Part shown: positions 11,018 through 31,707 of the stretch, one piece after another
Numbering within the stretch: position 1 is the first letter of the stretch
Layout of the letters: each line of letters begins with the position of its first letter
IMG/VR virus record: IMGVR_UViG_3300032288_001394
Location: 1 to 32,459 of that record
Strand: one strand, 5' to 3'
DNA: 32,459 nt
From: a virus
Program-made: the position numbers and the translations under genes
Notes under the pieces: model-generated
What the model was told of the DNA's origin: nothing
What the model saw: only the letters and a program-made list of their open reading frames with translations
Databases searched by the model: none

Positions 11018-11027
11018 TATCTACCCG

Positions 11028-11204
11028 TCAGTCGTTGCCGTTGTTGTCCTCGTCCATAGAGGCGGACATGGACAACACTAGAATTCGAGAGAGCAACTCT
11101 AACCCCTCACGGCGGGAAAATCCAGCCTGCTTGAGTTCGGAGTACAGTTCATGCGCCGAGATCGCTGCCTGCCTAAGCGGGCTGGCGTTGTTCATTTCGT
11201 CCAT
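11028..11204 (-). CDS. Small helical protein, 58 aa
   Basis: A short ORF in the gap between the polymerase and the upstream gene: ATG at 11202-11204, TGA at 11028-11030, 58 residues. The middle (about 10-48) is predicted helical with HELYSELKQAGFSRREGLELL, a pattern shared by many short actinophage proteins of unknown role; the tail is acidic (DEDNNGND). It fills the gap almost exactly, leaving 13 nt before and 10 nt after, in the same strand as its neighbours, which supports it being real. The ribosome-binding site is weak (GAGAGACAGAAG). Function unknown. Confidence 0.72.
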   Translation of the reverse strand: MDEMNNASPLRQAAISAHELYSELKQAGFSRREGLELLSRILVLSMSASMDEDNNGND

Positions 11205-11218
11205 TATCTTCTGTCTCT

Positions 11219-12027: not shown

Positions 12028-15000
12028 TTAGCGGACTAGCCACTCTTCGACTCCGTCCATATCCTCTCGAATCTTGATCCACCTCGGATTGGCCGGAAGC
12101 CCAGTAAGAAGAGGTAGACGACCCATGATTCCGATGGTCACCCACTCGGGGCGCTCTGACCTCGGAATGTATTCATAGTCCGGGTCGTAGTCAGGGTTGA
12201 GCGTTCCCTGATTGTTTTCGTCAAGGATGATTCGACCAAACTTGTCCCGAAGGAACTTGCCATACCAGCGAGTCTCGCTTGAGTTGCCGATCACTACAGG
12301 ATTCGTGCTGACAATGCCAACAATGATAGTCGGGTCATCATCTGTCGTTGCTGGACGAACTTTGCCGTCTGGAGTAAATACAACGCTAATGCCTACTCGG
12401 TCTTCGGCATTTGGATTACCGTCTAGCCACTCAAAGTATTCGGCATAGTCAGCGCCTGTTCCTGTGTACGCAGCATCAGCAAAGGTAGCACCGTTGTTTT
12501 GTACATACCATTTTATATCTTTTGGAGCCGTAACGTCTGAAAAAACACCTAGCCTTCTTGTACCAGTTGTCGAACTTGCTCCATAAGTAGCGTAGACACC
12601 TGTTGAAGAGATTCTTCCACTTGAGCCGACGCCAGTAACCGGGTTAGTTCCGGTGTCTGTTGCAGTTGCTCCAATTAGAACAGAATCTCCGTTAAGTACA
12701 TAAAGAAGACCGCTAGAAATATTTACGTTTGAAGAAGCGCCTCCAACGTTTAACGTTGTTGCGGCTGCGCCAAAATTAATAGTTGTTGCTGTTGTGTTGA
12801 CAAGAGCAAAAGTGGTGCTACCAGTAAGAATGCTTGTTGTAAATGTAGGGCTAGTACCAAATACAAGAGCACCAGAGCCAGTTTCATCGGTTACAGCAGC
12901 CGCAAGATTCGCACTTGATGGAGTGCCGAGGAAAGTTGCTACACCAGTACCAAGGGACGACAGTCCAGTTCCGCCATTCGCAGCGGACAGCGGAGTGTCG
13001 AGAGTTACGCCAGTCGAATCAACTCGGAAACGCTCTGCTGCTGTGGTAGAACCGGGAGCAGCGGTGAGGATGTTGACGTATGAAGCAGAAGATGAGGCAG
13101 TGTGAGTTGCGCTCGCGTATGCGTTAATTTGAGCGCCTTGAACGTTTGCTGATCCGGTCCAGCCAAAAAATCTAATTACCCCGAGTCGGTCACCAGACTG
13201 AGTAATTCCTCCTGACGATCCTGAACTCCTTCTGAAATCTACGATTCCAGACGAAGAGGCAGTAGTGCTGGTTCCAGTCGCGGTGAGAGTAGGAATACTG
13301 CTACTCAGTGACAAGTTACCGAATGTTGGTGATGAGGATGTGCCGATGTCCTGAGGAGTTGAGAGAGTCACTGATCCGGTTGATGCAGAGGCAGTGATCT
13401 GATTGCTTGTTCCAGTAATACTTGTGACACCAGCGTTGGTAAGCGTCACCGAACTGCCGAGTGCGACCGCTCCACCGCCGCTCATCCCGGTGCCAGCCGT
13501 TACTGTCACAGAAGAGTTGACAAGAGCAGTATTCGGTACACCGCCAGTCTTGATGCTGACAGCGCCAGAAGTGACATCAAAGTTGGTAGCGGAGAAGGAT
13601 GCAATACCAAGAGTCGTCGTAGTCGCTTGGGCGGTGGCTACACCGGAAGTACCTTGGAGTCCTTGGAGTCCTTGGATGCCTTGAGTACCTTGGATTCCCT
13701 GTGCTCCAGTTGTTCCTGTCGCTCCTTGCGTTCCAGTTGTCCCCTGTAGTCCGGTCTCCCCTTGAATACCTTGTGTTCCGGTTTCTCCCTGAAGGCCAAC
13801 TGTGCCCTGAAGACCAGTGGTCCCCTGAGTACCCTGCGTTCCAGTATCTCCGGTCGTGCCCTGTATTCCTTGAATACCCTGAGTTCCTTGGGTTCCTGTA
13901 GAGCCTTGACTTCCGGTAGTACCCTGAGTTCCAACGAGTCCTTGAGTTCCTGTCTCTCCTTGGATTCCGGTCTGTCCCTGAAGACCAGTAAGTCCTTGGA
14001 TTCCAGTTTCTCCTTGTAGTCCTACAGTTCCCTGAAGGCCGGTAGTTCCCTGAACACCCTGTACTCCCTGCGCTCCGGTAGTGCCGGTTGATCCCTGCGC
14101 CCCATCCGTACCCTGTAGTCCAGTTGCTCCCTGTGCTCCAGTCTGACCTTGGATGCCGGAAGTGCCCTGCAATCCTTCTATGCCCTGTGTACCTGTCGAA
14201 CCTTGAGTACCAGTTGTTCCTTGAATTCCTTGTAGACCTTGCTCTCCTTGAATTCCTTGGATTCCTTGAACACCTTGAGTACCAGTTGTTCCTTGAATTC
14301 CAATCTCACCCTGAGCACCAGTGGTGCCCTGTGGTCCGGTCGTTCCTTGGAGTCCAGTTACTCCTTGCGCTCCGGTAACACCCTGTAGACCAGTTGTGCC
14401 TTGAGTTCCAGTAGTCCCCTGAGGACCAATTTGCCCTTGTGCTCCCGTCGTACCTTGTAGACCAGTTGCTCCTTGGACTCCAGTAATCCCCTGTGGGCCA
14501 AGTTGGGTGTACATAACCTGCATTGCGGTGACGATTGCTGAAGGAATACCCGGACCATAGGTTGACGTATTGTGCGCCATGACAATGTTGTTATTGTCTG
14601 TTGTCCACATAATCTGCAAGTAATCATTTGCAGTCAGGGAAAGCATGAAGTCCCATGCGGAAACAACGTATGGACTATTGGTATTTACGGTTACCCGAGT
14701 ATTCGAGTCTGGGACATCGGTTCCGTTCTTTCTAAGCCAAACCTCTACGGTTGTCCCGCCCCCGCCGCCGCCAGTATTGTGGAATTGAAATGAAAACTGA
14801 ATGTCGTATACGCCGGAGTAGTCGAATCGAATCTGTGAACCACTTTGGATACTTACACCATTATTCTCGGCGGTAGTTCCTAGTAGAACCGCTGTAGGGA
14901 CGCCTTCGTTTCCTACTCCAACGGTCTGGTCGGTAGTGTCGTAGAAAGAACCGTAATGACCTAGGGCACCACCAGCACCTTGGATTCCGGTGATGCCTTG

Positions 15001-17442
15001 AATACCTTGTAGTCCTTGAATGCCTTGAAGTTGGGCGTAGCCAAATCCCTGTATGCCCTGCAATCCTTGGGTTCCCTGAATACCTTGAGCACCTTCAATA
15101 CCGACAGCACCGGAGAGGTTGACTGACCATGACGAGTATGTTCCTGCTCCCAACTTACTTGTGTGGAGAAACGTCAGAGATCCAGTTGTATGGTCGTAAC
15201 TACTGACAGTTCCGTATTGAATGTTTGATACGTCGTGAGCAATGATAAGAGTCTGGCCGACTGAATAGTCAAGATTAGTTTCAACGGTGATGGTTGTAGT
15301 TCCACTGTTGCTGATTGTGAAGGAAGATGTGGACGAGGTGCTGTACTGATCTCCGGCTTCACCAACAAGTCCTTGGATGCCTTGAGTGCCTTGAGCACCC
15401 TGCAAGCCAGTAAGACCTTGGAGGCCAGTTGTTCCTTGAGTTCCTGTAGCGCCTTGAGTACCTACTGAACCTTGAGTGCCTGTTTCTCCCTGAATACCCT
15501 GAATCCCCTGAGCGCCCGTGGTTCCTTGAAGACCTGTCTGACCTGTTGCCCCTTGAGTTCCTGTAGCACCTTGCGTGCCAGTCGTGCCTTGTAGCCCAAC
15601 GCTACCCTGAACTCCTTGAAGTCCATCTGATCCTGTTGTTCCCTGAACTCCCTGAATACCCTGACTTCCGGCAGTTCCCTGAAGTCCTGTAGTTCCTTGG
15701 GTTCCGGTAGAACCTTGAAAACCAACTTCTCCCTGTAGACCAGTGGTGCCCTGAGAACCTGTTGCACCTGTAGTTCCTTGAGTGCCCTGTAGTCCGGTGG
15801 CTCCTTGAATTCCTGTTTGACCAGTTGTACCTTGTGAGCCAGTCGTACCTTGGGCACCAGTGGTGCCTTGTAGCCCGACGCTCCCCTGAGTTCCAGTAAA
15901 TCCTTGTAGACCGGAAGTTCCCTGAGAGCCTGTCGTGCCCTGAGAACCAGTAGTTCCTTGAGCACCAGTAAAGCCTTGCGTTCCTACAAGTCCCTGTGTT
16001 CCACTCTGTCCTTGAATACCGTTAGTTCCTTGAAAACCAAAACTTCCTTGAATGCCAACGTCCCCTTGAAGGCCAGTTGCACCCTGAGATCCTGTCGTCC
16101 CTTGAGTTCCCTGAGTTCCTTGAAGACCTGTTGCTCCCTGAGTTCCGGTTGCACCCTGCGAGCCAGTTGTACCCTGCACTCCTTGTAGACCCTGAAGACC
16201 TTGCACTCCTTGCAAACCTTGAGTGCCAGTTGCACCTTGTATGCCAGTTGTCCCCTGAATTCCCTGAAGACCTTGTTCTCCTTGAAGTCCTTGGATACCA
16301 GTCAGACCTTGAACTCCGATTAGCCCCTGAGTTCCTTGTACTCCCTGTGTTCCTTGCATTCCTTGCAAACCTTGAGTGCCCTGAACACCCTGAATTCCCT
16401 GCGTGCCTTGTACTCCCTGTGTTCCTTGCAGACCCTGAAGACCTTGAGTTCCTTGAGCCCCCTGAATCCCTGTTGTCCCCTGTACTCCTTGTACTCCCTG
16501 TACTCCTTGAAGACCTTGTAGACCTTGTAGACCTTGAGTGCCGGTTGCACCTTGTATTCCTGTTGTTCCTTGAGTTCCCTGTACTCCTTGGGTTCCCTGC
16601 ATTCCAGTAAGACCTTGAACACCCTGATCTCCAACAGGGCCAATGGGTCCACGAGTTGTTACCAGACCGGATAGACCAACCGGAGTATCCGTCCAACGAT
16701 CAAGTTGCGTGATATTTACTGAAGAACCATCTGCGTATGGAAGATAGATTCTAAACTCGTTAGGAGACGACCCGCTTGTCCGCGTACGAACTCTGTAGTA
16801 CCAGTTGAGAGGCTTAAGGTTGTAGTTGTCAGTGCATGGAAGGTCGATAGAAAACTCACCATTATCGTCAAGGGTAACGATTACGGCATTAGAGATAATG
16901 ACATTGTCATTGTCGTCGAGAATCTTCGACGAAGGCATAAACGTAATCGTGCCTGTAGATGGTCCGCCGTCTGAGTTTAGATACTGACCAAACACATTTC
17001 GTACAACAGTATCTGGGGCGTACGAGGCAACTTCCGGCAGAGAGAACAGAATGGGTGACTCACTTGGAGAAACTACACCTGTGAGTGAACTTGCTGTTCT
17101 AATAGGTGGTACGGCATCAGAGATGACTACAGGCTCTCCGATATCCGAGAAAGGAAGATGAAGCCTGCGCTCTGTTGTGGGGGCACCGCTGGTTCGAGTT
17201 CTGATTGTGTAGTACCAACCAACCGGAGCCAGTGATGGATTGTCTGTGCATGGTAGTTCAGCAGAGAAGTATCCATTTTCGTCCAGTTGAATAATGTTGG
17301 TCCCGGCAATGACAACCTGACCGCTCGGTCCAGTAATGGTGGACGAAGGTACAATGGTTACAGTGCCCTTTGCCGGTGATCCATCTGGTGACAGAAACTG
17401 GCCCACGACAAGGCGAGTTGTAATATCCGATCCATAGGACAT
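12028..17442 (-). CDS. Giant collagen-like tail fibre with C1q-like and Peptidase_G2-type chaperone domains
   Basis: 1804 aa. Order of parts: two copies of a ~115-residue beta domain (about 10-120 and 145-255; both contain GQ[FY]L..DG and WYY..RTRTSG); a first Gly-X-Y region (about 266-697); a short beta insert (about 698-775); a second short Gly-X-Y piece; a C1q/TNF-like beta domain (about 825-980, [11 protein letters not shown] to [10 protein letters not shown]); a second long Gly-X-Y region (about 980-1265); a Ser/Thr/Gly-rich beta region; and a C-terminal domain from [10 protein letters not shown] (about 1661) with [14 protein letters not shown] and [14 protein letters not shown], matching Peptidase_G2, the self-cleaving intramolecular chaperone of phage appendages. 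Triplets are mainly Gly-X-Gln or Gly-X-Thr with almost no proline. It probably forms a trimeric host-binding fibre trimmed by its own tail domain. GGAGAG precedes the ATG. Confidence 0.93.
13647..14505. repeat. Collagen-coding repeat tract 2
   Basis: A 9-bp-period degenerate repeat encoding Gly-X-Gln and Gly-X-Thr triplets on the minus strand. Third-base positions vary freely, so the repeat is kept by protein selection rather than recent copying. The other frames of this tract give long artefactual ORFs rich in Leu/Pro/Ser or Arg/Glu. Confidence 0.85.
15350..16647. repeat. Collagen-coding repeat tract 1
   Basis: About 1.3 kb of 9-bp-period degenerate repeats coding for Gly-X-Y triplets with Gln or Thr in the third place on the minus strand. 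Some segments repeat nearly exactly (blocks of GLQG and GVQG), which makes the tract prone to expansion and to assembly error. Confidence 0.85.
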
Positions 17443-19898: not shown

Positions 19899-22507
19899 GT
19901 GATTGGGATGAAACAACCGAACGCCTTGCTTCCGCTGCGGACTACTACGCGGATCAAGGCTGGCAGGTGCTGCCATGTCATGGCATCCGTGAAGATAGCC
20001 GCTGTACATGCGGTCAACCACACAGTGAGCCGAAAGACGTAGGCAAGCACCCTCGTATCTCGGGGTGGAACAGCGAGGCAACGTCTGAACTGGCAACTGT
20101 TGATCGTTGGTGGCGCGAACTTCCAGATGGAAACATCGGAGTCTTCTGTAAGCCGTCTGGATTTTTTGTCATTGATATTGACCCGCGTTCAGGTGGGCCA
20201 GACTCGTTCGAGAAGTTCGAGCAACTGGTCGATGGTGCTCTGCCGCCGACTGTTGAGGCGATCACAGGTGAGTACAACGTCGGCGGTCGAATCCAGCGCG
20301 GACGGCACCTGTTCTACAAGTGCGCTTCAGATGAGGCTTTTGTTGGCAACCTCCAGAAGTCTGGGCTCAAAGGTATTGACATTAAGCACAACGGGTATGT
20401 GCTCGTTGCTCCATCGCGTCACTTTTCTGGTGTCACCTATGAGTGGGCACCGGGTAAGGCACCGTGGCAGATCGAGATGGCCGAGGCTCCTGAGGAGTTG
20501 TTGGTTGCTCTCCGTAAGAAGCCGCGCCGCGCGGGTGGTGCAAGTCTTGGCGAAGCCGACTGGAGTTGGCTTGATGGTCTTGACTTTGGTGGAGAGCGCG
20601 TCGATATCGAGCGGATGCTTGAGGATGGTATCGACGAGGGTTCGCGTGCTGTTGACATCTACAAAATGGCCTGTGCTCTGGCAAACAAGTTCCCTGTGAG
20701 CACCGAAGCCGGACGCATGGCTGTCGAGACGATGATGATCCGGTTCAATGCTGAGAAGGTTCGTCCTCCGTTGGAGTTGGAGGGACCGGGCGGTTTGCTC
20801 ATGCACGTTCGCCGCGCGATTGACTTCGTCATTGATAATCCACGGACTGAAAAGATCTGGCCGGGACTCCAAGAGTGGTCGAATAAATCTCAAGAAGAAG
20901 CCCGCGCTTCAACTGGTGAGAAGAAAAAGAGTAAGCCCGCTTCTACTAACGAATACTCTTTTGGTCTTCCCGGTTCTCTTGGTGGTCAGATCTCAGCGGC
21001 TCTGTACGACGGAGACTCTTTTGAAGAGGCTTCATCTCTGTCAAACATTGACGTTCCTAAAGATCCTGACGCCCTCCGCGAAGAAGACGGCGGCGAACCG
21101 GGTAAGCGCACTCTGTCAGATACCGGAAACGGTCGTCGTCTTATCGACACGTTCGGTCCTGCTGTTCGCTACACGCCGGGTCTTGGGTGGTTTCACTGGA
21201 ACCACGGATACTGGAAGCCGGACTCAGAGTCGCTTGAGATTATGGAACTGGCAAAAAAGTTGGCTCCAATCATTGCGTCCGAGGTTGTGAAGTACGACGA
21301 CGCAGACAAGCAAAACGAGGTCATCAAGTGGGCGCAGCAGTCAAAGTCAAACTCGCGACTCCGCGCTGCAATCGAGAACGCCAACTCTGATCCTCGCATT
21401 ATTGTCGGCGTCGAGAACTGGGACTGCGACGAGAACCTGCTGGGTGTTGCCAACGGAGTCATCGACCTCCGTACCGGAGAACTTCTGCGAGGCCGTCCTG
21501 ATCTCTACATCACCCGACGCGCTCCTGTTGCGTACAACCCCGGTATTCGCAATGTGCGCTGGGATCAGTTCCTTGAATTTGCAACAGGCGGAGATAAGGA
21601 ACTTCAGGACTGGATTCAACGTGCAGCGGGCTACTCGCTCACCGGCTCCAGTAAGTACGACCTGATGTTTCTCGTCTACGGTCCTCCCGGCTCCGGCAAG
21701 AACACGCTTGTCGAGGCGCTTGTGAAGTGTCTTGGCACGCAACAGTACGCATGGCCGATGGACTCATCCATCCTCGCGCAGGGCGACGGTCACGCGAACA
21801 GCACGGACCTGTACCACTGGGCAGAGTTGCGTGGTCGTCGTCTGGTGTGGGTGGACGAGTTGCCCGACAACGAGCGGCTCAAGGAGAACTCGGTCAAGAA
21901 GTTGACCGGCTCTTCTGAGATCTCTGCTCGTTCACCGGGCGAGAAGCCGTTCACGTTCCAGTCGCAGGCGAAGTTGTGGGTCACCACGAACCACCGACCG
22001 ATCATCACCGACGATGCAATGTGGCGACGTATCCGACCGATCCCGCTCACTCGCGTGCCGGAGAACCCGGACCCGGACCTCAAGGAGTACCTGTTCGATC
22101 CTGAGGGCGGTCTACCTGCGGTGCTTGCGTGGGCCGTTGAGGGTGCGATCAAGGTTATGGGCTCTGCTAATCGTGACGGTCTTGGCTGGTGCAAGGCTGT
22201 AGCAGAGGCTTCCGACATGTATCGAAAGAATGAAGATCGTATTGGTCTGTTCCTTAGCGAAGAGACCAAGGAGTCAGAAGGTGCTGAGACTCAGGTGAAG
22301 GCTTTGTACATGCTCTATCGAGTTTGGTCTGAAGAGCGTGGTGAGCGTCCAATGACTCAGATCGCATTCCATAGGAAGTTGGTTGAGCGCAATCTTCCTG
22401 TTGATGGAACAGGTGCTCATGCTGTCATCAGGAACCGGACATTGATGCCGCGCGTAGTCCCAAGCAGTGAGATCGACTGGGGTATGGCTGCACGCCTTGC
22501 GCGTTAG
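19895..22507 (+). CDS. Bifunctional prim-pol primase / SF3 (D5-like) helicase
   Basis: 870 aa. N-terminal prim-pol domain: GKHPRISGWNSEAT (50-63), a W-rich helix, NIGVFCKPSGF, the catalytic VIDIDPRSGG (D94, D96) and GRHLFY (H138), as in the archaeo-eukaryotic primase family used by plasmids and phages. Cysteines C28, C37 and C39 form a small extra cluster. A linker of ~150 residues, some of it Lys/Ser-rich, follows (about 340-385). The C-terminal half is a P4/D5-type SF3 helicase: P-loop VYGPPGSGKNT (~595), LVWVDELPDN (~650), TGSSEISAR and LWVTTNHRP with the arginine-rich WRRIRPI. It should prime and unwind phage DNA for the family A polymerase. Its stop overlaps the stop of the convergent terminase gene by 3 nt. 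Confidence 0.93.
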   Translation: MSDWDETTERLASAADYYADQGWQVLPCHGIREDSRCTCGQPHSEPKDVGKHPRISGWNSEATSELATVDRWWRELPDGNIGVFCKPSGFFVIDIDPRSGGPDSFEKFEQLVDGALPPTVEAITGEYNVGGRIQRGRHLFYKCASDEAFVGNLQKSGLKGIDIKHNGYVLVAPSRHFSGVTYEWAPGKAPWQIEMAEAPEELLVALRKKPRRAGGASLGEADWSWLDGLDFGGERVDIERMLEDGIDEGSRAVDIYKMACALANKFPVSTEAGRMAVETMMIRFNAEKVRPPLELEGPGGLLMHVRRAIDFVIDNPRTEKIWPGLQEWSNKSQEEARASTGEKKKSKPASTNEYSFGLPGSLGGQISAALYDGDSFEEASSLSNIDVPKDPDALREEDGGEPGKRTLSDTGNGRRLIDTFGPAVRYTPGLGWFHWNHGYWKPDSESLEIMELAKKLAPIIASEVVKYDDADKQNEVIKWAQQSKSNSRLRAAIENANSDPRIIVGVENWDCDENLLGVANGVIDLRTGELLRGRPDLYITRRAPVAYNPGIRNVRWDQFLEFATGGDKELQDWIQRAAGYSLTGSSKYDLMFLVYGPPGSGKNTLVEALVKCLGTQQYAWPMDSSILAQGDGHANSTDLYHWAELRGRRLVWVDELPDNERLKENSVKKLTGSSEISARSPGEKPFTFQSQAKLWVTTNHRPIITDDAMWRRIRPIPLTRVPENPDPDLKEYLFDPEGGLPAVLAWAVEGAIKVMGSANRDGLGWCKAVAEASDMYRKNEDRIGLFLSEETKESEGAETQVKALYMLYRVWSEERGERPMTQIAFHRKLVERNLPVDGTGAHAVIRNRTLMPRVVPSSEIDWGMAARLAR

Positions 22508-25020
22508 CGAACTCTGAAAGTAGATCCCCCGCCACCGCTGAACTTTCGACCAACGTCGATACGGCGGGCGGCGGGGGATTTTGCTTGTAGTCGTCCGCCA
22601 ACGAATCCTGCCGGTGGCTTGATGAGCAGAGCAGTTAGCGCGTGTACAAGTGCGTCAACTCGGTCTGGTGACTTTCCTTCACCCGGAATCCACTGAGTCA
22701 TCTGAGTTTCAAGATCTGCATGGATGCCAATGTGGTGAACGCGGCGCTGCTCATACGACAAGACAACCGGCTCAGCGCGTAGTGCCTTACCGTGCTTCGA
22801 GTGAACCTCAAGAACTTTGACATTCGGGTCGATGGCATTGATGGCATTGCGTACTAGAGCGCCACCTTGGTTGACTTCGGCAATCACTGGGCAGCCGTAC
22901 TTACGAGCCATATCTACAACTTTGTTGGCCCATACTTCTGGAGATCCGTGGATTGTTGCATCTTCCAGAACCCATGCCTTGCGCTTGTAAAGATCTCGCT
23001 CTCCCGTGCTCGCGCAGACAACGATTCCGCATTCGTCTCTAGGATTCTCGGCAACAGATGGATCTACTCCAATACAGCGAAGAGCGACTCCTGTCGGGGC
23101 TATGCCTTCGCGACATTCATCAATCATCTCCAGAGTCCACAGTGCGCCTTCGACATCGCTAAGCATCTCGCCATAAAGTTCCTGTTGTGCTAGACGAGTT
23201 CCGGCGTAAACGCCGGTAATGGCTTCGAGATACGCACCTGAAAGATTTCCTGCGTTATCAAGTGTCGAGCCTTTAGTAATTACAACTTTGCCAGTGCGCT
23301 TGGCTTCGTCCAGCAAGTCATAAAGAACTTTCACACGCTTTGGAGTTGTTGTTGCCAGAATCTGTGGGTTCATCCCAAGACGAGTTGCAACACGAAGGTT
23401 GTCCCATGAAGTCATACCCGCTGCGTCTGGAGTCTGTCGCCAAGCGGCCAACTCATCGGCCCATGCGTAGTGCGCCTGAATACCTCGGAGCGAGTCTGGT
23501 TCGTCTGCCGTGAAGCAGGTTGCCATGTTGCCGTTCGGCCAAGTTAGTCGGCGCTTTGACGGCTCATAGAGCGGCTTCTCACTTGGAGGTGAAACGTTAA
23601 TGATGCCAGACTCACCTTCTACGATGACATCGCGTACATCGGCGGCGGTACGAGCAACAAGTGCGAATCGGAGTTGGCCGTACTTGGTCTCTTTGGCTTT
23701 GTCACGAATCCACTCGGCTGCGGAGCGTGTGTTGTGTGTTGGGATCATGGCCTCGCCAGCGAGGTACATTGAGTTGGAGGAGTTCACTGTTAGGCATCGA
23801 GATAATTCAGCATCCACCTCGATCACCGATGTAATCATGCGATGACGTTGGCGCAGCGCCTGTGCGGCTAGAGAAGAGATCTTTTCGGCTTTGCGAGGAA
23901 GAAGGAAGGGGTTGTGTGTAGTCGGTCGCCACGTCACCCGGTACTTGGGACCACAATCTTTTCCATAAAGCGTGGCTCTGCTCTCGCTAAGGACGGGGCG
24001 TTCAGACAAAGAGCGAGACAATTCCAAAACTGCGATAGCGAGTTGCTTGTTGGTGTTGCAGAACTCGACGGTATTGCGACGGATGTCTGCGTACCCATCC
24101 GAGTCCATCAGTCCTCGCAGCAGCGCAAGACGCTGCTCTTCGGAAGCACGCAGATAGATAGCGGGGACATGCTTGTTGTGACGAACTCCCAACTTCCTTA
24201 ATTCAGCGCTGAGACCAGTAGTGCCGATGACGATGTCCCGAGAGTTATTCCACTTCGATGGTCGGTACCCAGCCGCCGAAAGTATCGGGAGCAGAAATGG
24301 TTGATCCTCTACTCCGCAGCAGATGGAGCCATCACGCTTGCTGCCATCGCCCAGCCATACCCCGAAGATGTATGGGTCGATAGGAAGGTCGGCGGTGGGT
24401 AGAGCCAGCGGTCGAGCGAGAGGAATGCAGTGGTTGCGGTCACCGCGAATGCCGATTGTTTGCGTCTTGTAGATCTCATCCGTAAGTCTGATCTCCGGGC
24501 CGATCTCGTCAACGACATTGTGGTGCGAGTCAAGTAGCGTGATTCGGTGATTTACCCAGTCCACAGGAAAATCGGTGACCGGCTCTTCGGTGTACCTCTG
24601 GAACTGCTTCCGGTCTCGATGCGTCCATGTTACCCACTGGTGGTCACCATCGGCATAGATAAAGACTCCATCCGAAAACTCGATCCGATACATGCGCTCG
24701 GGGATATAGGGGTCATGCGCCTCTGTAACGACACAGATATTGCCCTGCTCATCGAAGACTTGGTCCCCGGCCACAATGTCACCGATCTGCTTCCACCCAC
24801 TCGGGGTTGGAATAGGTGTGTCTATTCTCAGCGCCTTCCCTGCGCCTCGGCCAGCGAGGAAAAGAAAGATGTTCCATGAGTCATTGGGAGGTGGCAACTG
24901 CTCTGGACGCGCCCACAACTTCCAATCCCAAAGAAGTGACTCGGGGTCAATCTCGCGCAGGACGGCTTCGCGCTCTGCCTCGGGCATGAGCGCAAGTTGC
25001 TCCATGATGCTTTTTCCCAC
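22504..25020 (-). CDS. terL: Terminase large subunit interrupted by an intein
   Basis: 838 aa, of which about 470 are terminase. Packaging ATPase: Walker A is split as GRGAGK (57-62) | TRSAAEW (431-), restored to a perfect GRGAGKTR after splicing; Walker B is YAWADELAAW with the catalytic Glu; an ATTTPK motif III follows. The nuclease domain shows the RNase H-like acids: CIGVDPSVAE, VIAEVNQGG and SPDRVDALVHA. Start: GTG at 25020 with no Shine-Dalgarno, but a -10-like TATACT ends exactly 6 nt upstream, so the message may be leaderless; the in-frame ATG at 25005 is the alternative. A strong terminator lies just upstream, isolating it from the double-HTH gene. Confidence 0.96.
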   Translation of the reverse strand: MGKSIMEQLALMPEAEREAVLREIDPESLLWDWKLWARPEQLPPPNDSWNIFLFLAGRGAGKALRIDTPIPTPSGWKQIGDIVAGDQVFDEQGNICVVTEAHDPYIPERMYRIEFSDGVFIYADGDHQWVTWTHRDRKQFQRYTEEPVTDFPVDWVNHRITLLDSHHNVVDEIGPEIRLTDEIYKTQTIGIRGDRNHCIPLARPLALPTADLPIDPYIFGVWLGDGSKRDGSICCGVEDQPFLLPILSAAGYRPSKWNNSRDIVIGTTGLSAELRKLGVRHNKHVPAIYLRASEEQRLALLRGLMDSDGYADIRRNTVEFCNTNKQLAIAVLELSRSLSERPVLSESRATLYGKDCGPKYRVTWRPTTHNPFLLPRKAEKISSLAAQALRQRHRMITSVIEVDAELSRCLTVNSSNSMYLAGEAMIPTHNTRSAAEWIRDKAKETKYGQLRFALVARTAADVRDVIVEGESGIINVSPPSEKPLYEPSKRRLTWPNGNMATCFTADEPDSLRGIQAHYAWADELAAWRQTPDAAGMTSWDNLRVATRLGMNPQILATTTPKRVKVLYDLLDEAKRTGKVVITKGSTLDNAGNLSGAYLEAITGVYAGTRLAQQELYGEMLSDVEGALWTLEMIDECREGIAPTGVALRCIGVDPSVAENPRDECGIVVCASTGERDLYKRKAWVLEDATIHGSPEVWANKVVDMARKYGCPVIAEVNQGGALVRNAINAIDPNVKVLEVHSKHGKALRAEPVVLSYEQRRVHHIGIHADLETQMTQWIPGEGKSPDRVDALVHALTALLIKPPAGFVGGRLQAKSPAARRIDVGRKFSGGGGSTFRVR
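22524..22582 (+). terminator. Three-part hairpin in the terL 3' end, likely primase terminator
   Basis: ATCCCCCGCC (22524-22533) pairs with GGCGGGGGAT (22570-22579) over 10 bp, extended inside by CCGCTG/CGGCGG (35-40 with 62-67, one wobble) and TCGAC/GTCGA (46-50 with 55-59), and is followed by TTTT on the plus strand. It starts 17 nt after the primase stop, inside the last codons of the convergent terminase gene (Gly-rich end). It would stop plus-strand transcription while being coding for the other strand. Confidence 0.6.
23731..24834 (-). mobile_element. Class 3 intein with LAGLIDADG endonuclease, in TerL P-loop
   Basis: Residues 63-430 of the terminase ORF (368 aa). It starts with Ala (ALRIDTPIPTPSGW) instead of Cys or Ser and ends in PTHN before a +1 Thr. 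The class 3 triplet is all present: W129 in block B (GDHQWVT, with the usual H127), C409 in block F (RCLTVNSS) and T428 in block G (IPTHN). These replace the first-residue nucleophile with the block F cysteine. Two LAGLIDADG helices, IFGVWLGDG (219-227) and LRGLMDSDG (301-309), mark a homing endonuclease that may still be active. Known class 3 inteins are mostly phage-borne. The insertion point is between K62 and T431 of the Walker A motif. Confidence 0.93.
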
Positions 25021-25725: not shown

Positions 25726-26706
25726 TTAGTCAAGCGGCTGAAGAAGGCTAATGATGTCTTTCTTTGGAGCGCGGGCCGCGTGAGCCGAGACATCAGAACG
25801 GCCAAATGTAAGGACAAGATCGTCTCCAATTTCTACAATTCCAGCACAGAACTCGATTCCGCGAGCAATGAACTGGAAAACCCTTGACATTTCAACTAAA
25901 CGCCCAAAACGGTCAAAACGGACAAAATAGTGCCCGTAGTTTTTATCGTGCCCGTTGACGTACGCGAGCCTTGTGGGGATGTAGTGCCGGGTCTCCTTGG
26001 TCCACAACTTATGCATTACTGCTAGATACGTTCCATCAGGCTGCTCTAACAGGTTTGTGTTTCCTCGTAGTCCTGACAAACGGCTGTCGTTCATAACCGT
26101 GAAGATCACCTGACCATCTTTGACAATTGAATTTGGGCCGTAGATGAAGTCAAAGTTGGGATTAGGTTCGAGGATAGGAAGCATCCAGTTTTTCTCTGGC
26201 TTCTTTGCGTCAGTGCCTTGAAAGATTTCAACATCAGTCACTTCTGACTTTTTCTCGTCAAGAACGCAGACGCAGAGCCTTGCTACCGGAGTATGAGTCT
26301 CAAGCATGACGGCAGTGAAGTGCCACTTGCCTTCTCGCCAGAAAAGTTTTGAATCTTCTAATCCTCGCCACGTTGTGACGATCTCGCTAGGAACTTTGAT
26401 ACGTCGCAGATTCTTGATCGTGAGATCTTCGTCTGTCTCGGTGAACCAAACTTGATTGCGAATCTTTGCACCCTGCGTAACATGAAGTTCGCCAGTCTCA
26501 AGGATGACGTAGTTAGACGAGCGAAACGTCATTGCGTAACCCTTGTTTGGAGCATAGGCAATCGACGGATTGAACGCCGACCACTCTTTCTTCGGCGGTT
26601 CTATGAGACGACGGATCTGCTGCACTTCGCCGGGGAACTTTGGAAGACGTTCTGGATTTTCCGGGGTTCGCACCCTATACATAGATCGCTGCCGGGAATC
26701 TGTCAT
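25726..26706 (-). CDS. GH130-like beta-propeller protein (glycosidase/phosphorylase-like), copy 1
   Basis: 326 aa. Signature elements of the GH130/GH43-type five-bladed propeller: FNPSIAY (45-51), WRGLEDSKLF (113-122, compare G-x-EDPR of GH130), EKNWMLPIL (171-179), MHK (231-233) and IEFCAGIVEIGDDLVLTFG (284-302), then SDVSAHAAR (304-312). The Pro of EDPR is replaced by Ser. The same series is present in order in the plus-strand protein at 29424-30431, so the two are paralogues. Related EKNW proteins are found near glycosyltransferases and FkbM methyltransferases. Possible activity: cleaving, phosphorolysing or binding a glycan; substrate unknown. It overlaps the methyltransferase gene by 32 nt; a start at Met9 (26682) would cut this to 8 nt. 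Confidence 0.8.
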   Translation of the reverse strand: MTDSRQRSMYRVRTPENPERLPKFPGEVQQIRRLIEPPKKEWSAFNPSIAYAPNKGYAMTFRSSNYVILETGELHVTQGAKIRNQVWFTETDEDLTIKNLRRIKVPSEIVTTWRGLEDSKLFWREGKWHFTAVMLETHTPVARLCVCVLDEKKSEVTDVEIFQGTDAKKPEKNWMLPILEPNPNFDFIYGPNSIVKDGQVIFTVMNDSRLSGLRGNTNLLEQPDGTYLAVMHKLWTKETRHYIPTRLAYVNGHDKNYGHYFVRFDRFGRLVEMSRVFQFIARGIEFCAGIVEIGDDLVLTFGRSDVSAHAARAPKKDIISLLQPLD

Positions 26707-27454
26707 TTACGGGACCAAACTTATAGCAAAGCGCAAAGATGTTGTCGCCAGTGTGCTGAATGTCGAAGCCCGCATTGACAAGGCGTCGCATAGTGGAAGG
26801 ACGACCATCCTCAAAGGTGTCTTCAGTCCAGATCAGTCCGTGAAAGCCTGACGCTTTGAGTACCTGATAAAGAGAATGAACGGTGTATTCGTAGTTGTGT
26901 CTGTGGTACTCACGGGTCTTGTGATACTGCATGAAAAGATACGGTTCCAGTCCAAGAAGCATCTTGTGGATTCCAGTAGAACTTGCAACGTTTGGGGTCG
27001 TTAACAGCAAGACCGCTTCCGGCTTCAAGACGCGATTGATCTCAGACATCATAAACATAGGATCAATTTCCATGTGCTCCAATACTTCACAGCACATGAC
27101 CCAATCAAACGACTCGTCCTTAAACGGCAGCGGGTCGTTCTCCAGATCGACGCGCACTGCTGCATGCTCATTACCAAGTCGGTCAAGGACAGTATGGTGC
27201 AGCGGCTCATCCATATCAAAGTTTGTGACATCAACCTTGAGATCTGAAGCAAGACGACTCAGGGCAGCCGGAAATACGCCACTGGTCCCAATCTCAAGAA
27301 GCCGACCTTTTGGACGCTTCTCCATAAGAACTTGGAGTGTGCGAGCAAACCGGCGACGGTGCGTGACGTGATAACTGTCATCAGCAGGGATAAGTTCTTG
27401 GAGCACCTCCCGAATGTCCTCGGGGATGCCCGCGAAAGGGCTGGAGAAGACCAT
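26675..27454 (-). CDS. SAM-dependent class I methyltransferase
   Basis: 259 aa. Methyltransferase_11-like Rossmann fold: LLEIGTSG (52-59), an acidic end of strand 2 (NFDMDEPLHH, 78-87), and FDWVMCCEVLEHM (116-128), followed by the helix RVLKPEAVLLLTTPN. No DNA-methyltransferase motif (such as DPPY) is seen, so a small molecule, sugar or lipid substrate is more probable than DNA. AGGGGAAG lies about 6 nt before the ATG. It is read between the 51-aa basic gene and the propeller gene and is probably part of the same cassette. Confidence 0.88.
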   Translation of the reverse strand: MVFSSPFAGIPEDIREVLQELIPADDSYHVTHRRRFARTLQVLMEKRPKGRLLEIGTSGVFPAALSRLASDLKVDVTNFDMDEPLHHTVLDRLGNEHAAVRVDLENDPLPFKDESFDWVMCCEVLEHMEIDPMFMMSEINRVLKPEAVLLLTTPNVASSTGIHKMLLGLEPYLFMQYHKTREYHRHNYEYTVHSLYQVLKASGFHGLIWTEDTFEDGRPSTMRRLVNAGFDIQHTGDNIFALCYKFGPVNDRFPAAIYV

Positions 27455-27457
27455 GAA

Positions 27458-27613
27458 TTACTTCCCCTTTGCTCTGATTCCCATGTAGCCAGTCTTGCGC
27501 TTGTTCTGGCTACCGGGCTTCTTGTACGCCTTTCCGCTGCCAGACTTGTCCTGAGGCATGGTGGCAATTCGCTTCTCTAAAGCCGCTTGAATCTTGTCGT
27601 GATGCTTACCCAT
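27458..27613 (-). CDS. Small basic protein, 51 aa
   Basis: A short gene between the methyltransferase and the dCMP deaminase: ATG at 27611-27613, TAA at 27458-27460. About a quarter of the residues are Lys or Arg, mostly in the second half (KAYKKPGSQNKRKTGY). AGGAG lies 5 nt before the start codon and the gene sits 2 nt after the deaminase stop and 3 nt before the next start, all strong signs of a real gene. A nucleic acid binding role is possible from the charge, nothing more. Confidence 0.85.
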   Translation of the reverse strand: MGKHHDKIQAALEKRIATMPQDKSGSGKAYKKPGSQNKRKTGYMGIRAKGK

Positions 27614-27615
27614 CA

Positions 27616-28131
27616 CTACTCCTTTGCTTCTGGAAAAACAACTCTTGTTATGCCCGACGATACAATCAACTTGCTACAGCCGGGGCATGGCTTACCCGTG
27701 ATGTAGAGCGTTGCTCCGCGTAAATCATCCCATGAAGCACGCAATAATGCGTTTGACTCAGCGTGCGTTGCCCAACACAAGTCATAGTTTCCTACAGCGT
27801 GTTGAGATGTCGGGTCTAGTGCGCGAGGGCACTGTCCGGTAGCACCGCATGATCTGGGGTCTCCAGAGGGGGTTCCGTTGTATCCAGTTGAGACAATTTT
27901 GTGGTCCTTGACCACAACTGCTCCATGTTTTGCTCGAACACAGTCTCCTCTAGCGGAAACTGCAACAGCAATTGTTAAGTAGTACTCATCCCACGACGGC
28001 CTTTTGCCTGATGAGAGGGCATGTCCAGAGTCTTTGCTGGATGTATCGAGGTGCTGGTCAGAGGCACTATTTGGGAAGACCAAGTTGACATTTCTAGAAT
28101 ACAAGTGTATTGTTGAATCGTCATTATTCAT
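27616..28131 (-). CDS. Deoxycytidylate (dCMP) deaminase, ComEB-like
   Basis: 171 aa. Typical dCMP deaminase features: RPSWDEYYLTIAVAVSARGDC (44-64 region), the substrate loop GYNGTPSG (83-90), HAESNALL with H123 and the catalytic E125, and GKPCPGC with C149 and C152 as zinc ligands; an additional cysteine cluster (C95, C101, C119) fits the second zinc site of this enzyme family. It converts dCMP to dUMP for thymidylate supply. The first ~43 residues are unlike the family and may be an N-terminal extension or an upstream misread start. It is the first gene of this minus-strand transcript, starting 92 nt from a divergent plus gene. Confidence 0.93.
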   Translation of the reverse strand: MNNDDSTIHLYSRNVNLVFPNSASDQHLDTSSKDSGHALSSGKRPSWDEYYLTIAVAVSARGDCVRAKHGAVVVKDHKIVSTGYNGTPSGDPRSCGATGQCPRALDPTSQHAVGNYDLCWATHAESNALLRASWDDLRGATLYITGKPCPGCSKLIVSSGITRVVFPEAKE

Positions 28132-28153
28132 TAGATGGAAGTCTCTCTAGTAG

Positions 28154-28182
28154 TTGATGCCTCTTTCGGTGGATGCTACTCT
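28154..28182 (+). promoter_or_regulatory. Extended -10 promoter for the plus-strand gene block
   Basis: TTGATG (28154-28159), 17-nt spacer, TACTCT (28177-28182) preceded by TGC, a good sigma-70-type extended -10 promoter 42 nt before the GTG at 28224. The overlapping minus strand carries GTAGCAT (28173-28179), 42 nt upstream of the dCMP deaminase start, so the two divergent promoters may overlap. Confidence 0.6.
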
Positions 28183-28223
28183 AGAGTTTCCGTTTCTGAT
28201 CCGAGGAAGGGAGGCTGAGTCAA

Positions 28224-28514
28224 GTGGGTAGAAAAAAGAAGCAAGAGTCCACGCTGGCAACTGCCCACCCCGACTGGGTTGTCTCCCATGAGATGACCAT
28301 TAACGGGCGGACGGTGGAGATTGGCACAGAGTTGTCAATCAAAGGGGAGTCGGGGCGGTTCCGGTTCCTAAAGCACATCAAGACTCCGACTTCGGAGTGG
28401 ATTGATGTGATTGGCGGCAAAGAGCGGTACCAGCGATTTCGGTCGTTCCGCGTCGATGCCGTCAGAACAGTCCACCGTCTAAACCGGGTCAGACCGACGA
28501 AAGGAACGTCGTGA
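28224..28514 (+). CDS. Hypothetical beta-rich protein, 96 aa
   Basis: GTG start with AGGGAGG 9 nt upstream, a very strong ribosome-binding site. A basic N-terminus (GRKKKQ) is followed by MTINGRTVEIGTELSIKGE and GRFRFLKHI, a strand-rich section that reads like a small SH3-like or barrel fold, and EWIDVIGGKE. Its sequence pattern is one I associate with conserved actinophage proteins, but I do not know a function. Its stop overlaps the next start as GTGA (28511-28514). Confidence 0.8.
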   Translation: MGRKKKQESTLATAHPDWVVSHEMTINGRTVEIGTELSIKGESGRFRFLKHIKTPTSEWIDVIGGKERYQRFRSFRVDAVRTVHRLNRVRPTKGTS

Positions 28515-29155
28515 GGTTTGATGCGAATAAGTTCAGGCTCCTATCCGTCGTCGCTGTTACTGCTGCCGCAGCCGCAGCGCTACTAGGGGTAGACCTAGCA
28601 ACTGGGGCTACCGAGCCGTCCTCAGGAGCGGCAACACCGACAACTACACAAGTGACGCAAGGACCAATCGCACGGCAGCCCTCCAAAGTGGATGTGGCGG
28701 TGGACATGCAATCCCTACGAGAACAGCGCAATAAAATTGCGCGGAAGTCTGGTCGCTCATTGTCCTGCCGGAATGATCTGGCGAGGACGCTTTATGGCGC
28801 TGGGTTCCGTGGAGAAGATCTCCGCGAAGCATGGGCTATTGCTATGCGTGAATCCAATGGCCTAAATCTCGGTCCCGGTGATTCTCAGTTTAATGGTGAG
28901 GATTGGGGCATTGTTCAATTCAACAAGCCAACATGGGGCGACGAGCCGTGGTGGGATGACGAGAAGATTCTGAATCCTGACTACAGCGCCCGAATCATGT
29001 ATCGCATGTCAAAGGGTGGTACTAATTGGCAAATGTGGGGGTTGACCGCTGATGGTCAACTTGACACCTCGATGTATCGGGGCTGGTCTTCGAGACAGCA
29101 CTGGGCATGGATTATTGAGCCATACCAGCGATGGTATCGCCAGTACCCCTGCTAA
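28511..29155 (+). CDS. Secreted lysozyme/transglycosylase-like protein
   Basis: 214 aa. A signal peptide or anchor lies at about residues 9-30 (LLSVVAVTAAAAAALLGV), then a Thr/Pro/Ser-rich stalk (about 31-60), a helix, and a lysozyme-like domain: AWAIAMRESNGLNLG with E114 as the likely catalytic glutamate, followed by DWGIVQFNKPTW (131-142) and an aromatic-rich end. The order E-S-x-G ... G-I-x-Q-F matches SLT and lysozyme-type folds that cut peptidoglycan. C86 and C214 (the last residue) could form a disulfide after export. It may help entry or lysis; the phage endolysin is not otherwise visible here. No lipobox cysteine. GTG start with AAAGGA. Confidence 0.82.
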   Translation: MRFDANKFRLLSVVAVTAAAAAALLGVDLATGATEPSSGAATPTTTQVTQGPIARQPSKVDVAVDMQSLREQRNKIARKSGRSLSCRNDLARTLYGAGFRGEDLREAWAIAMRESNGLNLGPGDSQFNGEDWGIVQFNKPTWGDEPWWDDEKILNPDYSARIMYRMSKGGTNWQMWGLTADGQLDTSMYRGWSSRQHWAWIIEPYQRWYRQYPC

Positions 29156-29164
29156 CTACCTTCG

Positions 29165-29209
29165 AGAACGGGTGGCGTGAGATAGTCTTACGCCACCCGT
29201 TCTTTATTT
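29165..29209 (+). terminator. Strong rho-independent terminator after the lysozyme-like gene
   Basis: AGAACGGGTGGCGT (29165-29178) pairs with ACGCCACCCGTTCT (29190-29203) over 14 perfect base pairs and is followed by TTATTT. It starts 10 nt after the stop. The inner bases GA/TT add a wobble and a pair, leaving a 7-nt loop. Confidence 0.92.
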
Positions 29210-29224
29210 GGAGGACAAGAAACT

Positions 29225-29437
29225 GTGGGAAAAAGAGTCGTCAACAGTCTTGCCCTAGACGAGATCTTGGGTACACCAGCATCCATAACTTTAAAGCAGA
29301 TAGAAGACGCTACGGCGACTGTGTATCGTCATGCAAAAGACGAAGAGGACGCAAAGTTTCTTATTTCTATCCTTGGGCTTGACCAGAGTGAGAAGATGAT
29401 CTCGCCTAGCAAGGAGCAGTTGAGTGTTGCTGAATGA
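29225..29437 (+). CDS. Hypothetical protein, 70 aa
   Basis: GTG start with GGAGGA about 9 nt upstream. The sequence is mainly helical (TLKQIEDATATVYRHAKDEED, then AKFLISILGLD) with no cysteine and no membrane segment. Its stop overlaps the second propeller gene by 14 nt, so it belongs to that transcript. Not recognised. Confidence 0.75.
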   Translation: MGKRVVNSLALDEILGTPASITLKQIEDATATVYRHAKDEEDAKFLISILGLDQSEKMISPSKEQLSVAE

Positions 29438-30431
29438 TGTCCTAAACGCTGGCGGATCTATAAGTCCTCTAGTGATTCCGGCATCCAGCAGCGGAGGCAC
29501 AGGGCTAATGAATCCATCGCCTCTTGTGTGGCGCGGTCGTCTCATTATGAATCTTCGGCAGACTAACTACATCCTGTATCACACAGAGGGTGCCAAGACT
29601 TTCAATAATCGTTGGGGTCCGCTGACGTACCTGCACCCCGAGGATGACCTGACTCTTCGCACTAAAAACTTCATGTGTGAGTTGGACCCCGAGACACTGA
29701 CCGTCTCGCGCTATACAGAAGTTGACAGCACGATGTTTGATAAGGCTCCCCTGTGGACGTTCGTCGGCCTAGAGGATGCGCGACTGATGGAGTGGGACGG
29801 CGTTCTTGGAATGTGCGGTGTCCGACGAGATACAACCGGACACGGAGAAGGTCGCATGGAGTTCTCCACCATCGAGATTGATGAAGAGAACTGGGTCGTG
29901 CGCGAGGTGGACCGCTGGCGCATCCCGGCTCCCGGTGCGAATGACTCGTACTGCGAAAAGAACTGGATGCCGATTCTTGACATGCCGTGGCACTGGGTGA
30001 AGTGGACAAATCCCACCGAGATTGTTCGTGCTAACCGTTCGACTCTTGGCTGTGAGCAGGTGTTGCACAAGGTTCATCGCTATGTAAGTCAATCTGACAT
30101 GCGTGGCGGATCGCAGGTAGTGCGCTGGAGTGACTATCGCATCGCTGTGATCCACGAGGTCAACCTGTGGAAGAACTACTTAGAGCAGAAAGATGGTGCT
30201 TACGCGCACCGACTTGTCGTGTGGGACCAAGACTGGAACCTTGTTGGCGTATCACCGGAACGATGGTCCTTCATGTCCGGTGACATCGAGTTCTGCTCTG
30301 GTGCTGTGGTTTGGGAGAACGATCTTCTACTGACTTTTGGATTCCAAGACAACAGCGCACATCTGCTTCGAGTCCCTGCTGATGTGGTTGACAAGATGGT
30401 CGCGGAGGCGGTGGCTCATGTTTCAGCATGA
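29424..30431 (+). CDS. GH130-like beta-propeller protein (glycosidase/phosphorylase-like), copy 2
   Basis: 335 aa. The same ordered motifs as the minus-strand copy: MNPSPLVW (29-36), FVGLEDARLM (113-122), CEKNWMPIL (177-185), VIHEVNLW (242-249) and IEFCSGAVVWENDLLLTFG (288-306), then DNSAHLLR (309-316). GLEDAR is close to the G-x-EDPR signature of GH130. Only the segments around these motifs align well, so the duplication is old. The start is GTG at 29424 with AAGGAG 7 nt upstream. It overlaps the TPR-FkbM gene by 14 nt, a coupling that supports a joint task. Activity and substrate are unknown; a catalytic acid cannot be fixed from the sequence alone. Confidence 0.82.
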   Translation: MLLNDVLNAGGSISPLVIPASSSGGTGLMNPSPLVWRGRLIMNLRQTNYILYHTEGAKTFNNRWGPLTYLHPEDDLTLRTKNFMCELDPETLTVSRYTEVDSTMFDKAPLWTFVGLEDARLMEWDGVLGMCGVRRDTTGHGEGRMEFSTIEIDEENWVVREVDRWRIPAPGANDSYCEKNWMPILDMPWHWVKWTNPTEIVRANRSTLGCEQVLHKVHRYVSQSDMRGGSQVVRWSDYRIAVIHEVNLWKNYLEQKDGAYAHRLVVWDQDWNLVGVSPERWSFMSGDIEFCSGAVVWENDLLLTFGFQDNSAHLLRVPADVVDKMVAEAVAHVSA

Positions 30432-31707
30432 CAAATACCAAGAATGGATTAGGCGCTATGCCGAAGCACCGTTTGATCCTGAGGTCAACTTTGTCATGGG
30501 CCTCATCTACGAGGACTGCGGGCAGAACGCTGGTGCTGCATCGTTCTATATTCGCACCGCTGAGTTTGGGTACAGGACACACCAACTGCTTGCGTATGAG
30601 GCACTACTGAGACTGTCCGGCGTCATCGACAGGCAGTCTCACCGATTCTTCAGCGCACGAGGTGCTCTGCTTCGAGCCATTGCTCTTGAGCCAAAGCGTC
30701 CCGAGGGATACTTTCTTCTATCGCGGATGTACGAGCGAGTGCCTGAGTATGAGGACGCTTACTTCATTGCGTCGATGGGACTTGCTAATGCTGACTTCAC
30801 GGTTGGACCGCTGCGCTCATTCATTGACTACCCCGGCGTACACGCGCTGGTATTCGAGAAGGCAGTTGCAGGTTGGTGGGTCGGGCACAAGCAAGAGTCG
30901 CTTGAATTGTTTTTGACTCTCAACAAGTTGGAGATGGACCCGACGCATCGTCAGGCTGTGAATGCCAACCTTCGCAATCTTGGATACGCGCACGAGATTC
31001 TTGAAGGTAGCGATGTTCCCAGAGGAGATCTCTGCTTTGATATCGGAGCAAACCGTGGAGAAGCAACTGCTGTGGCTCTCAACTATGGATACAAAACGGT
31101 AGTCGCTTTAGAGCCTGCTCCGCGTATCTACAACACGCTTGCTAGTAACTACGAAAACGACGACAGGGTTGTCTGCCTTGATCTTGCGGTGTCAGACACT
31201 GACTGGGATACCGTCAGGTTTTACGAGGCCGAAGAAGATGGACTCTCGACCTTGAACATTGACTGGCTGACCGCCGACGATGCTCGCTATAAGGGAAAGC
31301 CGTTCCATGAGGTCGAGGCTCAGACAATCACGATGGACACGCTCATCGAAGAGTACGGTCTACCGGAACTGGTCAAGATTGACGTAGAGGGCGCTGAGGA
31401 CTGGGTACTTCGAGGGCTGACCAAGAAGCCGGGAAATTTGGCGTTTGAGTGGCATGTAGAGGAACTTCCCAAGGTCTTTGAGATGCTGTGCCGACTACGA
31501 GATGTCAACGGCTATACCGAATACGGACTTCAATATATTACGCACCATCTTCACGCTCCCCGCGAGTACAGGCCGCTGGAGAACTTGACTCTGGAAGAAC
31601 TCCTGTCTTGGCACGAAGAGGCCAAGGGTCCGTGGGAGTCTGGTGGCTGGATCGACGGAGGACGACTGAGGGCAACTGCCGATGCCGGAATGATGTGGGT
31701 CAGGTAG
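30418..31707 (+). CDS. TPR domain - FkbM-type methyltransferase fusion
   Basis: 429 aa from the chosen ATG at 30418, where GGAGG lies 9 nt upstream; the frame is open further left to an ATG at 30337, but that would overlap the propeller gene by 95 nt. Residues 1-195 hold helical TPR-like repeats (ALLRAIALEPKRPEGYFLLS, YFIASMGLANADF). Residues 203-420 are an FkbM methyltransferase: LCFDIGANRGE (205-215), VVALEPAPRIYNTL (228-241), TITMDTLIEEY and VKIDVEGAEDWVL (319-331). FkbM enzymes O-methylate sugars in polysaccharides and glycans, and TPR-FkbM fusions occur beside glycosyltransferase genes. Together with the propeller protein just upstream this suggests action on a glycan. Confidence 0.9.
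   Translation: MFQHDKYQEWIRRYAEAPFDPEVNFVMGLIYEDCGQNAGAASFYIRTAEFGYRTHQLLAYEALLRLSGVIDRQSHRFFSARGALLRAIALEPKRPEGYFLLSRMYERVPEYEDAYFIASMGLANADFTVGPLRSFIDYPGVHALVFEKAVAGWWVGHKQESLELFLTLNKLEMDPTHRQAVNANLRNLGYAHEILEGSDVPRGDLCFDIGANRGEATAVALNYGYKTVVALEPAPRIYNTLASNYENDDRVVCLDLAVSDTDWDTVRFYEAEEDGLSTLNIDWLTADDARYKGKPFHEVEAQTITMDTLIEEYGLPELVKIDVEGAEDWVLRGLTKKPGNLAFEWHVEELPKVFEMLCRLRDVNGYTEYGLQYITHHLHAPREYRPLENLTLEELLSWHEEAKGPWESGGWIDGGRLRATADAGMMWVR

Follow-up and report, generated by a model that had tools for sequence, protein, structure and literature searches.

The virus record IMGVR_UViG_3300032288_001394 of IMG/VR was analysed over positions 1 to 32,459, a stretch of 32,459 nucleotides referred to here as the window. 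It carries genes for two predicted GH130-like five-bladed propellers, each beside a methyltransferase gene. Copy 1 (P0001; 25726-26706, minus strand) belongs to an actinophage-type family, the second of two families distinguished below, and has the same active-site set as copy 2. Directly upstream of it lies the gene for MTase1 (P0002; 26675-27454, minus strand), a class I S-adenosylmethionine (SAM) methyltransferase, which overlaps copy 1 by 32 nt, or by 8 nt (ATGTATAG) when translation is taken to begin at the downstream ATG. Copy 2 (P0003; 29424-30431, plus strand) is a putative inverting glycosyltransferase of beta-mannosyl type from the GH130/GT108/GT91 clan; it starts with GTG, about 7 nt downstream of an AAGGAG sequence. 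Its open reading frame (ORF) overlaps by 14 nt that of a TPR-FkbM protein (P0004; 30418-31707, plus strand), in which a TPR-like region (approximately residues 1-190) is followed by an FkbM domain (approximately residues 200-340). None of the four proteins, all predicted to be soluble, contains a membrane segment (maximum KD19 1.3).

The initial annotation described two proteins with the same ordered motifs on opposite strands, about 2.7 kb apart, with a class I methyltransferase beside the first and a TPR-FkbM protein coupled to the second, and this description is accurate. All five motifs are present, in the order NPSI, GLEDSKL, PEKNWM, GIEFCAG and VSAH in copy 1 and NPSP, GLEDARL, CEKNWM, DIEFCSG and NSAH in copy 2, and 2718 nt separate the two genes. 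The copies share 28% identity with an E value of 2e-18 in BLASTP and 5e-33 in a profile-profile comparison, a resemblance beyond chance, so that on alignment evidence the two are homologous and the proposed paralogy is real. The cysteine of IEFC and the SAH motif vary in wider alignments. The positions that do not vary in either family are N30, R45, N48, Y49, G115, E117, D118, E178, K179, N180, W181, R227, G228, H244, Y260, E289, G293, G306 and D309; for N30, R45, E117, D118, K179, R227, H244, Y260, E289 and D309 the count is 62 of 62 sequences. Profile and motif alignment place N30, R45, E117, D118 and D309 in the NP, R, ED and C-terminal D columns of GH130. The catalytic Asp of the G-x-E-D motif and the sugar-site N, R and D, the residues by which GH130 membership is judged, are thus kept. 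Residues of these kinds matter in the GH130 enzyme BT3780 (N74, R89, E141, D142 and D363), where mutation of R89, E141, D142, K199 or D363 abolished nearly all activity and mutation of N74 most of it (PMC4599007). K179 and H244 are candidate equivalents of the GH130 lysine and phosphate-side residues, and by their conserved residues both propellers look like working enzymes.

As searches of PDB sequences with P0003, A1 and A7 gave no clear family, the predicted folds were compared instead. The AlphaFold model of copy 2 (62-row alignment) has a predicted local distance difference test score (pLDDT) of 92.2 and a predicted template modelling score (pTM) of 0.91; the corresponding values for copy 1 (seven-row alignment) are 75 and 0.77. 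Both models are propeller-like, and GH130 and GT108 enzymes lead their Foldseek lists against the PDB, which bears out the GH130-like fold that had been proposed; both copies are, on these models, GH130-like five-bladed propellers. Each of the best 26 matches of copy 1 is an actual or putative mannoside enzyme of GH130 type (7fip, 2.9e-8); the GT108 enzyme MPT-1 ranks lower (1.1e-4). Copy 2 matches first the Leishmania GT108 enzyme MPT-4 (6q50, 2.2e-9), with GH130 phosphorylases close behind (from 3e-9), then a mannoside synthase and the GDP-mannose-dependent MPT-2 (D94N, 7.4e-8). Further, hhalign aligned cellular GH130 with the joint profile at an E value of 1.2e-7 and with copy 1 at 4.6e-7. 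Enzymes of both GH130 and GT108 are five-bladed propellers that work by inversion (PMC8950772). Searches of BFVD with copy 2 matched giant-virus proteins (Pithovirus LCPAC) with E values of about 1e-20 to 1e-16 and template modelling (TM) scores of 0.72-0.77, and the matches include larger proteins named fucosyltransferase or LicD/FKTN. The propeller fold is seen in A0A481Z9G3, A0A3G5AFP7, A0A1V0SDN7 and others, some of them large and named fucosyltransferase, pyruvyltransferase or LicD.

By sequence thresholds, the window propellers belong to none of the named families, although they would act like the GH130/GT108/GT91 clan. No model in Pfam, PHROGs or NCBIfam matches copy 1 or copy 2. With GH130 they share the fold, the NP, R, G-x-E-D and terminal D columns, and a Glu preceding the catalytic Asp, as in the beta-1,2-mannan phosphorylases 7fip and 9fj8, but the viral propellers form a clade apart from the cellular GH130s tested, have family-specific EKNW and RGG motifs, and adjoin genes of glycan synthesis rather than degradation. 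GT108, represented by the MPT/MTP enzymes of Leishmania mexicana, provides the best PDB match of copy 2, likewise a five-bladed propeller, and its known members transfer beta-mannosyl residues by inversion (PMC8950772). However, the PDB sequence searches returned no MPT chain, and the window enzymes are viral, coupled to TPR and methyltransferase proteins, and without a storage-mannan context. As for GT91, or BMT (PF12141), two phage records annotate family members as beta-mannosyltransferase, and a cyanobacterial relative, L215, keeps NPSI, R..NY, GxED, KNWMP, RGGSQ, HEV and the C-terminal D. Yet P0001, P0003 and the 62 relatives are unmatched by PF12141, and only L215 passes.

The methyltransferase partners are more readily classified. 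MTase1 matches PF13489 (6.4e-16, 59 bits against a cut-off of 27) and PF08241 (2e-13, 51 against 21.2), and weakly the D-glucose O-methyltransferase 6uv6 (E value 0.003). The C-terminal half of P0004 is a clear FkbM methyltransferase (PF05050, 2.8e-13, 50.8 bits against 22.7; TIGR01444, 3.5e-25, 89.1 against 37.7), but it differs from that family in its N-terminal TPR domain and its coupling to a propeller. The TPR region is weak on its own (TPR_17, 0.0011, below the cut-off); TPR models are found in 22 of 25 long relatives.

These partners are tied to the propellers well beyond the window. Of the 85 members of the copy-1 family, 45 have MTase1 as their upstream neighbour on the same strand, always overlapping or no more than 10 nt away, and one further member has it on the opposite strand. 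A TPR gene, often with FkbM, directly follows copy 2 in 87 of 88 members, with overlap in 81 of the 87 (median -13 nt). Homologues in the close clades are thus not scattered without methyltransferase neighbours. The same comparison tells against the single split cassette of the initial annotation: the copy-1 and copy-2 families are separate clades with support of 99/98 each (with a warning from the tree tool about long branches at their junctions with GH130 and L215), and each propeller-partner linkage persists in loci that lack the other pair. Both copies occur together in only two other fetched loci, L059 and L074, and on the contig behind L075 and L103. The window therefore holds two separately distributed pairs, not one cassette. 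Local duplication as the origin of the copies was rejected because each falls inside its own clade, and mis-assembly or chance pairing because the linkages recur.

Scans of viral sequences found 129 copy-1-type relatives and at least 595 viral contigs with a copy-2-type relative. Copy-1 contigs often carry genes for WhiB, an actinobacterial marker (PMC10202952), and the copy-1 family is of actinophage type. By contrast with the contig scans, a tblastn search of 50,697 catalogued phage records with copy 2 gave just three matches, including a distant copy-1 member; two are annotated as beta-mannosyltransferase and one as 'MGP protein', and no published study of these members was found. Because so many contigs carry copy-2 relatives, while the catalogue is nearly devoid of them and no model matches, a feature common among uncultured aquatic phages has so far lacked a name. 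The copy-2 family is very rare in cells. A genome-wide contig scan yielded six contigs of metagenome-assembled genomes (MAGs) with copy-2 relatives, and in a sample of 291 genomes from one cyanobacterial phylum three carried a relative, one of these being a PF04041-type GH130. At least some of the MAG relatives are probably phage DNA in bins, because collagen-like or T4-type tail genes adjoin them in the regions L217 and L219. A BMT family search of 244 genomes of the cyanobacterial phylum sample gave no match, with the controls equally unmatched.

The initial annotation saw no glycosyltransferase and concluded that the set would act on an existing glycan. This is probably wrong, since the propeller itself is probably the transferase, judging from its predicted fold and its relatives. 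The nearest folds include GDP-mannose-dependent mannosyltransferases. Further, the cyanobacterial relative L215:6119-8308 (genome G325, a single contig of 4.4 Mb from the cyanobacterial phylum sample) joins GT2, TPR and propeller in one protein; its propeller reaches 30.7 bits against the PF12141 cut-off of 28.3, which makes it a GT2-TPR-BMT fusion, and is the sister of copy 2 (support 98/89). The fusion adjoins a gene that contains RTX repeats and weakly matches collagen, and may be a cellular counterpart of the phage unit. Finally, viral relatives are fused or adjacent to glycan-synthesis domains: domains encoded in copy-2 genes or next to them include FkbM, Methyltransf_24, radical SAM with SPASM, GT25, GT2, GT11, ATP-grasp and DUF6445 (the alignment of fused proteins, A6, served domain scanning only). 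The copy-2 propeller is fused to radical SAM/SPASM in L001:7968-10583, L104:6443-8281 and L133:7248-9779, two of which also include FkbM; this is an unusual partner for a sugar enzyme. In L219, a region from a bacterial bin with T4-type tail genes, the gene directly after the propeller-TPR pair (10561-11349) fuses a cytidylyltransferase-like domain to a mannose-phosphate-isomerase cupin. A gene of similar size occupies the same position in L218 and L220.

Copy 2 is further associated with collagen-like genes, defined here by at least eight GXY triplets, with near-identical contigs counted separately in the locus counts. Such a gene lies within 2 kb in 35 of 50 copy-2 loci against 8 of 62 loci of the copy-1 family, which served as control, and within 4 kb in 29 of 34 against 13 of 54. 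The distance from copy 2 to the collagen gene is 2.8 genes, compared with 4.5 for random genes in the same loci (0 of 2000 resamplings). Gene order in individual phages agrees: Synechococcus phage DSL-LC02 has tail fibre, collagen-like, propeller, FkbM, FkbM and tail fibre genes in succession, and in S-SCSM2R (listed host Synechococcus WH7803; genes SSCSM2R_194 and SSCSM2R_195) a baseplate/tail-pin gene lies 15 nt ahead of the propeller. The window itself encodes a collagen-like fibre protein of 1804 aa (12028-17442, minus strand) with 258 counted GXY triplets, matches to PF01391 (2.5e-116) and PF11962 (5.6e-25), and a C-terminal Peptidase_G2 autoproteolytic domain. Its triplets have Thr at X at a frequency of 0.30 and Gln at Y at 0.60, like the collagens of copy-2 loci and unlike those of copy-1-only loci; it is a candidate acceptor.

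Considering the computed fold, active-site conservation, coupling, distribution and neighbourhood together, we give an even chance to the reading that copy 2 and its TPR-FkbM partner build a methylated glycan on collagen-like fibres, with copy 1 and MTase1 as a separate pair. As an inverting glycosyltransferase from the GH130/GT108/GT91 clan, copy 2 would attach a sugar of beta-mannosyl type, the TPR domain would dock the acceptor or keep the enzymes together, and FkbM would O-methylate the sugar as a cap, the whole forming a virion-fibre glycan-building unit. The likely acceptor would be a collagen-like tail fibre, perhaps the product of 12028-17442 or a fibre encoded beyond the window, and its modification would take place in the cytosol, ahead of assembly. 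Copy 1 and MTase1 would form another pair, independent of the first but similar in its chemistry. The transferase direction, mannose as the donor sugar, the fibre as acceptor and the methyl cap are what we infer.

Several observations weigh against this reading. P0001 and P0003 have no match to PF04041, the GH130 model, and 23 of the 62 relatives match it only below the gathering threshold (best 0.0012). Sequence alone cannot tell transferase, phosphorylase and hydrolase apart, and the invariant Glu residues E178 and E289 could allow a hydrolase-type base. The mannose specificity is borrowed by analogy from distant relatives. In the window, the collagen-like gene is on the opposite strand to copy 2 and 12 kb away, so that the acceptor in this phage is putative. 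Lastly, copy-2 genes sit with tail-fibre genes in islands of host-recognition type, and it has been suggested that phage glycosyltransferases in such islands change the host surface (PMC7029224).

That last point leads to the rival that survives best, although it is unlikely: the transferases and methyltransferases would remodel a host envelope glycan during infection, for receptor masking or superinfection exclusion. The copy 1 neighbourhood has genes for a VanY-type peptidase and a lysozyme-like protein, which would suit such a role. FkbM enzymes elsewhere cap bacterial surface glycans. However, the window proteins lack both a membrane anchor and a secretion signal, neither a flippase nor a polymerase nor a lipid-carrier transferase was seen, and the adjacent genes are those of collagen-like fibres rather than of the envelope. 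Further, the structural relatives in giant viruses have no bacterial host envelope to modify. The targets listed in the initial annotation, a glycan on the host surface or on phage virions or DNA, thus fared differently: virion fibres are favoured for copy 2 by the collagen adjacency, whereas nothing specific speaks for trimming at the host surface.

Trimming as such, in which the propellers would be GH130-like phosphorylases or hydrolases cleaving an existing beta-mannoside, we consider somewhat less likely again. GH130 phosphorylases are the top PDB matches of copy 1, the catalytic Asp and the sugar-site residues are kept, and GT108 enzymes themselves work both as transferases and as phosphorylases (PMC8950772). 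Set against this, the propellers come without a transporter, secretion signal or other gene of mannan degradation, their fusions and neighbours are glycan-synthesis domains, and the nearest cellular relative is the GT2-TPR-BMT fusion.

Copy 1 and MTase1 could also act apart from copy 2 and modify phage DNA, with a glycosylated or methylated base as protection against restriction. Of 68 loci with copy-1 relatives, 11 have a Mom DNA-modification gene within 2.5 kb; such genes were present in 12 of the 50 records searched, none of them copy-2-only, and other copy-1 neighbours include ribonucleotide reductase, an Fpg-type DNA glycosylase, Thy1 and a deoxynucleotide monophosphate kinase-like gene. 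In the window, a dCMP-deaminase-like gene (27616-28131, minus strand) adjoins and precedes MTase1, and L004 has the same neighbour. This proposal is nevertheless improbable: no Mom gene is present in the window, and approximately 23 of the 68 copy-1 loci instead adjoin a short gene group, often with a collagen-like stub. A link of copy 1 to hydroxymethylase or thymidylate synthase was examined and is weak, as genes of this type (PF00303) occur in only 4 of the 50 records, mostly as fragments, and no hydroxymethylase was identified among them. A Mom-family gene lies within 2.5 kb of an MTase1-copy 1 pair in L028, L034, L036, L039, L043, L079, L087 and L025, for example.

Propellers frequently serve as binding scaffolds, but that the two copies are non-catalytic, lectin-like adaptors binding glycans for the methyltransferases is very improbable, as all 62 of 62 diverse sequences from two families keep the GH130-type residues, the catalytic Asp among them, and binding alone needs less.

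Two observations elsewhere in the window stand apart from the propellers. The large terminase subunit (22504-25020, minus strand) has an in-frame insertion in its Walker A region (GAGK...HN|T) with a LAGLIDADG_3 match, which by its sequence looks like an intein. Two small Cys-rich ORFs that cluster with each other (1727-2194 and 2931-3290, both minus strand) look WhiB-like by eye, consistent with an actinophage.

The initial annotation knew of no described phage system with this combination, and none was found: the literature searched, which mostly left out subscription papers, contains no description of a propeller-TPR-FkbM unit. The closest comparison is virion glycosylation in mycobacteriophages (Freeman et al. 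2023), which, as cited in PMC12619734, concerns the C-termini of capsid and tail-tube proteins rather than collagen-like fibres, and for which the citing text names no such unit. Neither the fold nor the idea of virion glycosylation is new; what appears new are the viral families, the constancy of their partners and the link to fibres. More broadly, and with rather less confidence than the reading of this locus, we tentatively propose an undescribed, virus-wide family of propeller-transferases of the GH130/GT108/GT91 clan, found in tailed phages and, by fold, in giant viruses, and very rare in cells. Together with the coupled TPR protein it would form a constant core into which methyltransferases, radical-SAM enzymes and further glycosyltransferases are swapped, giving variable methylated glycans on collagen-like viral fibres. 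Should the reading on fibres hold, these phages glycosylate their own collagen-like fibres with fold relatives of the Leishmania mannogen enzymes and of bacterial mannoside phosphorylases, and the fold is common to these phages and giant viruses. The family would also provide a new set of candidate beta-mannosyl transferases for linkages that, according to PMC10619541, are still a major synthetic challenge, and the question of what decorates collagen-like phage fibres would become testable.

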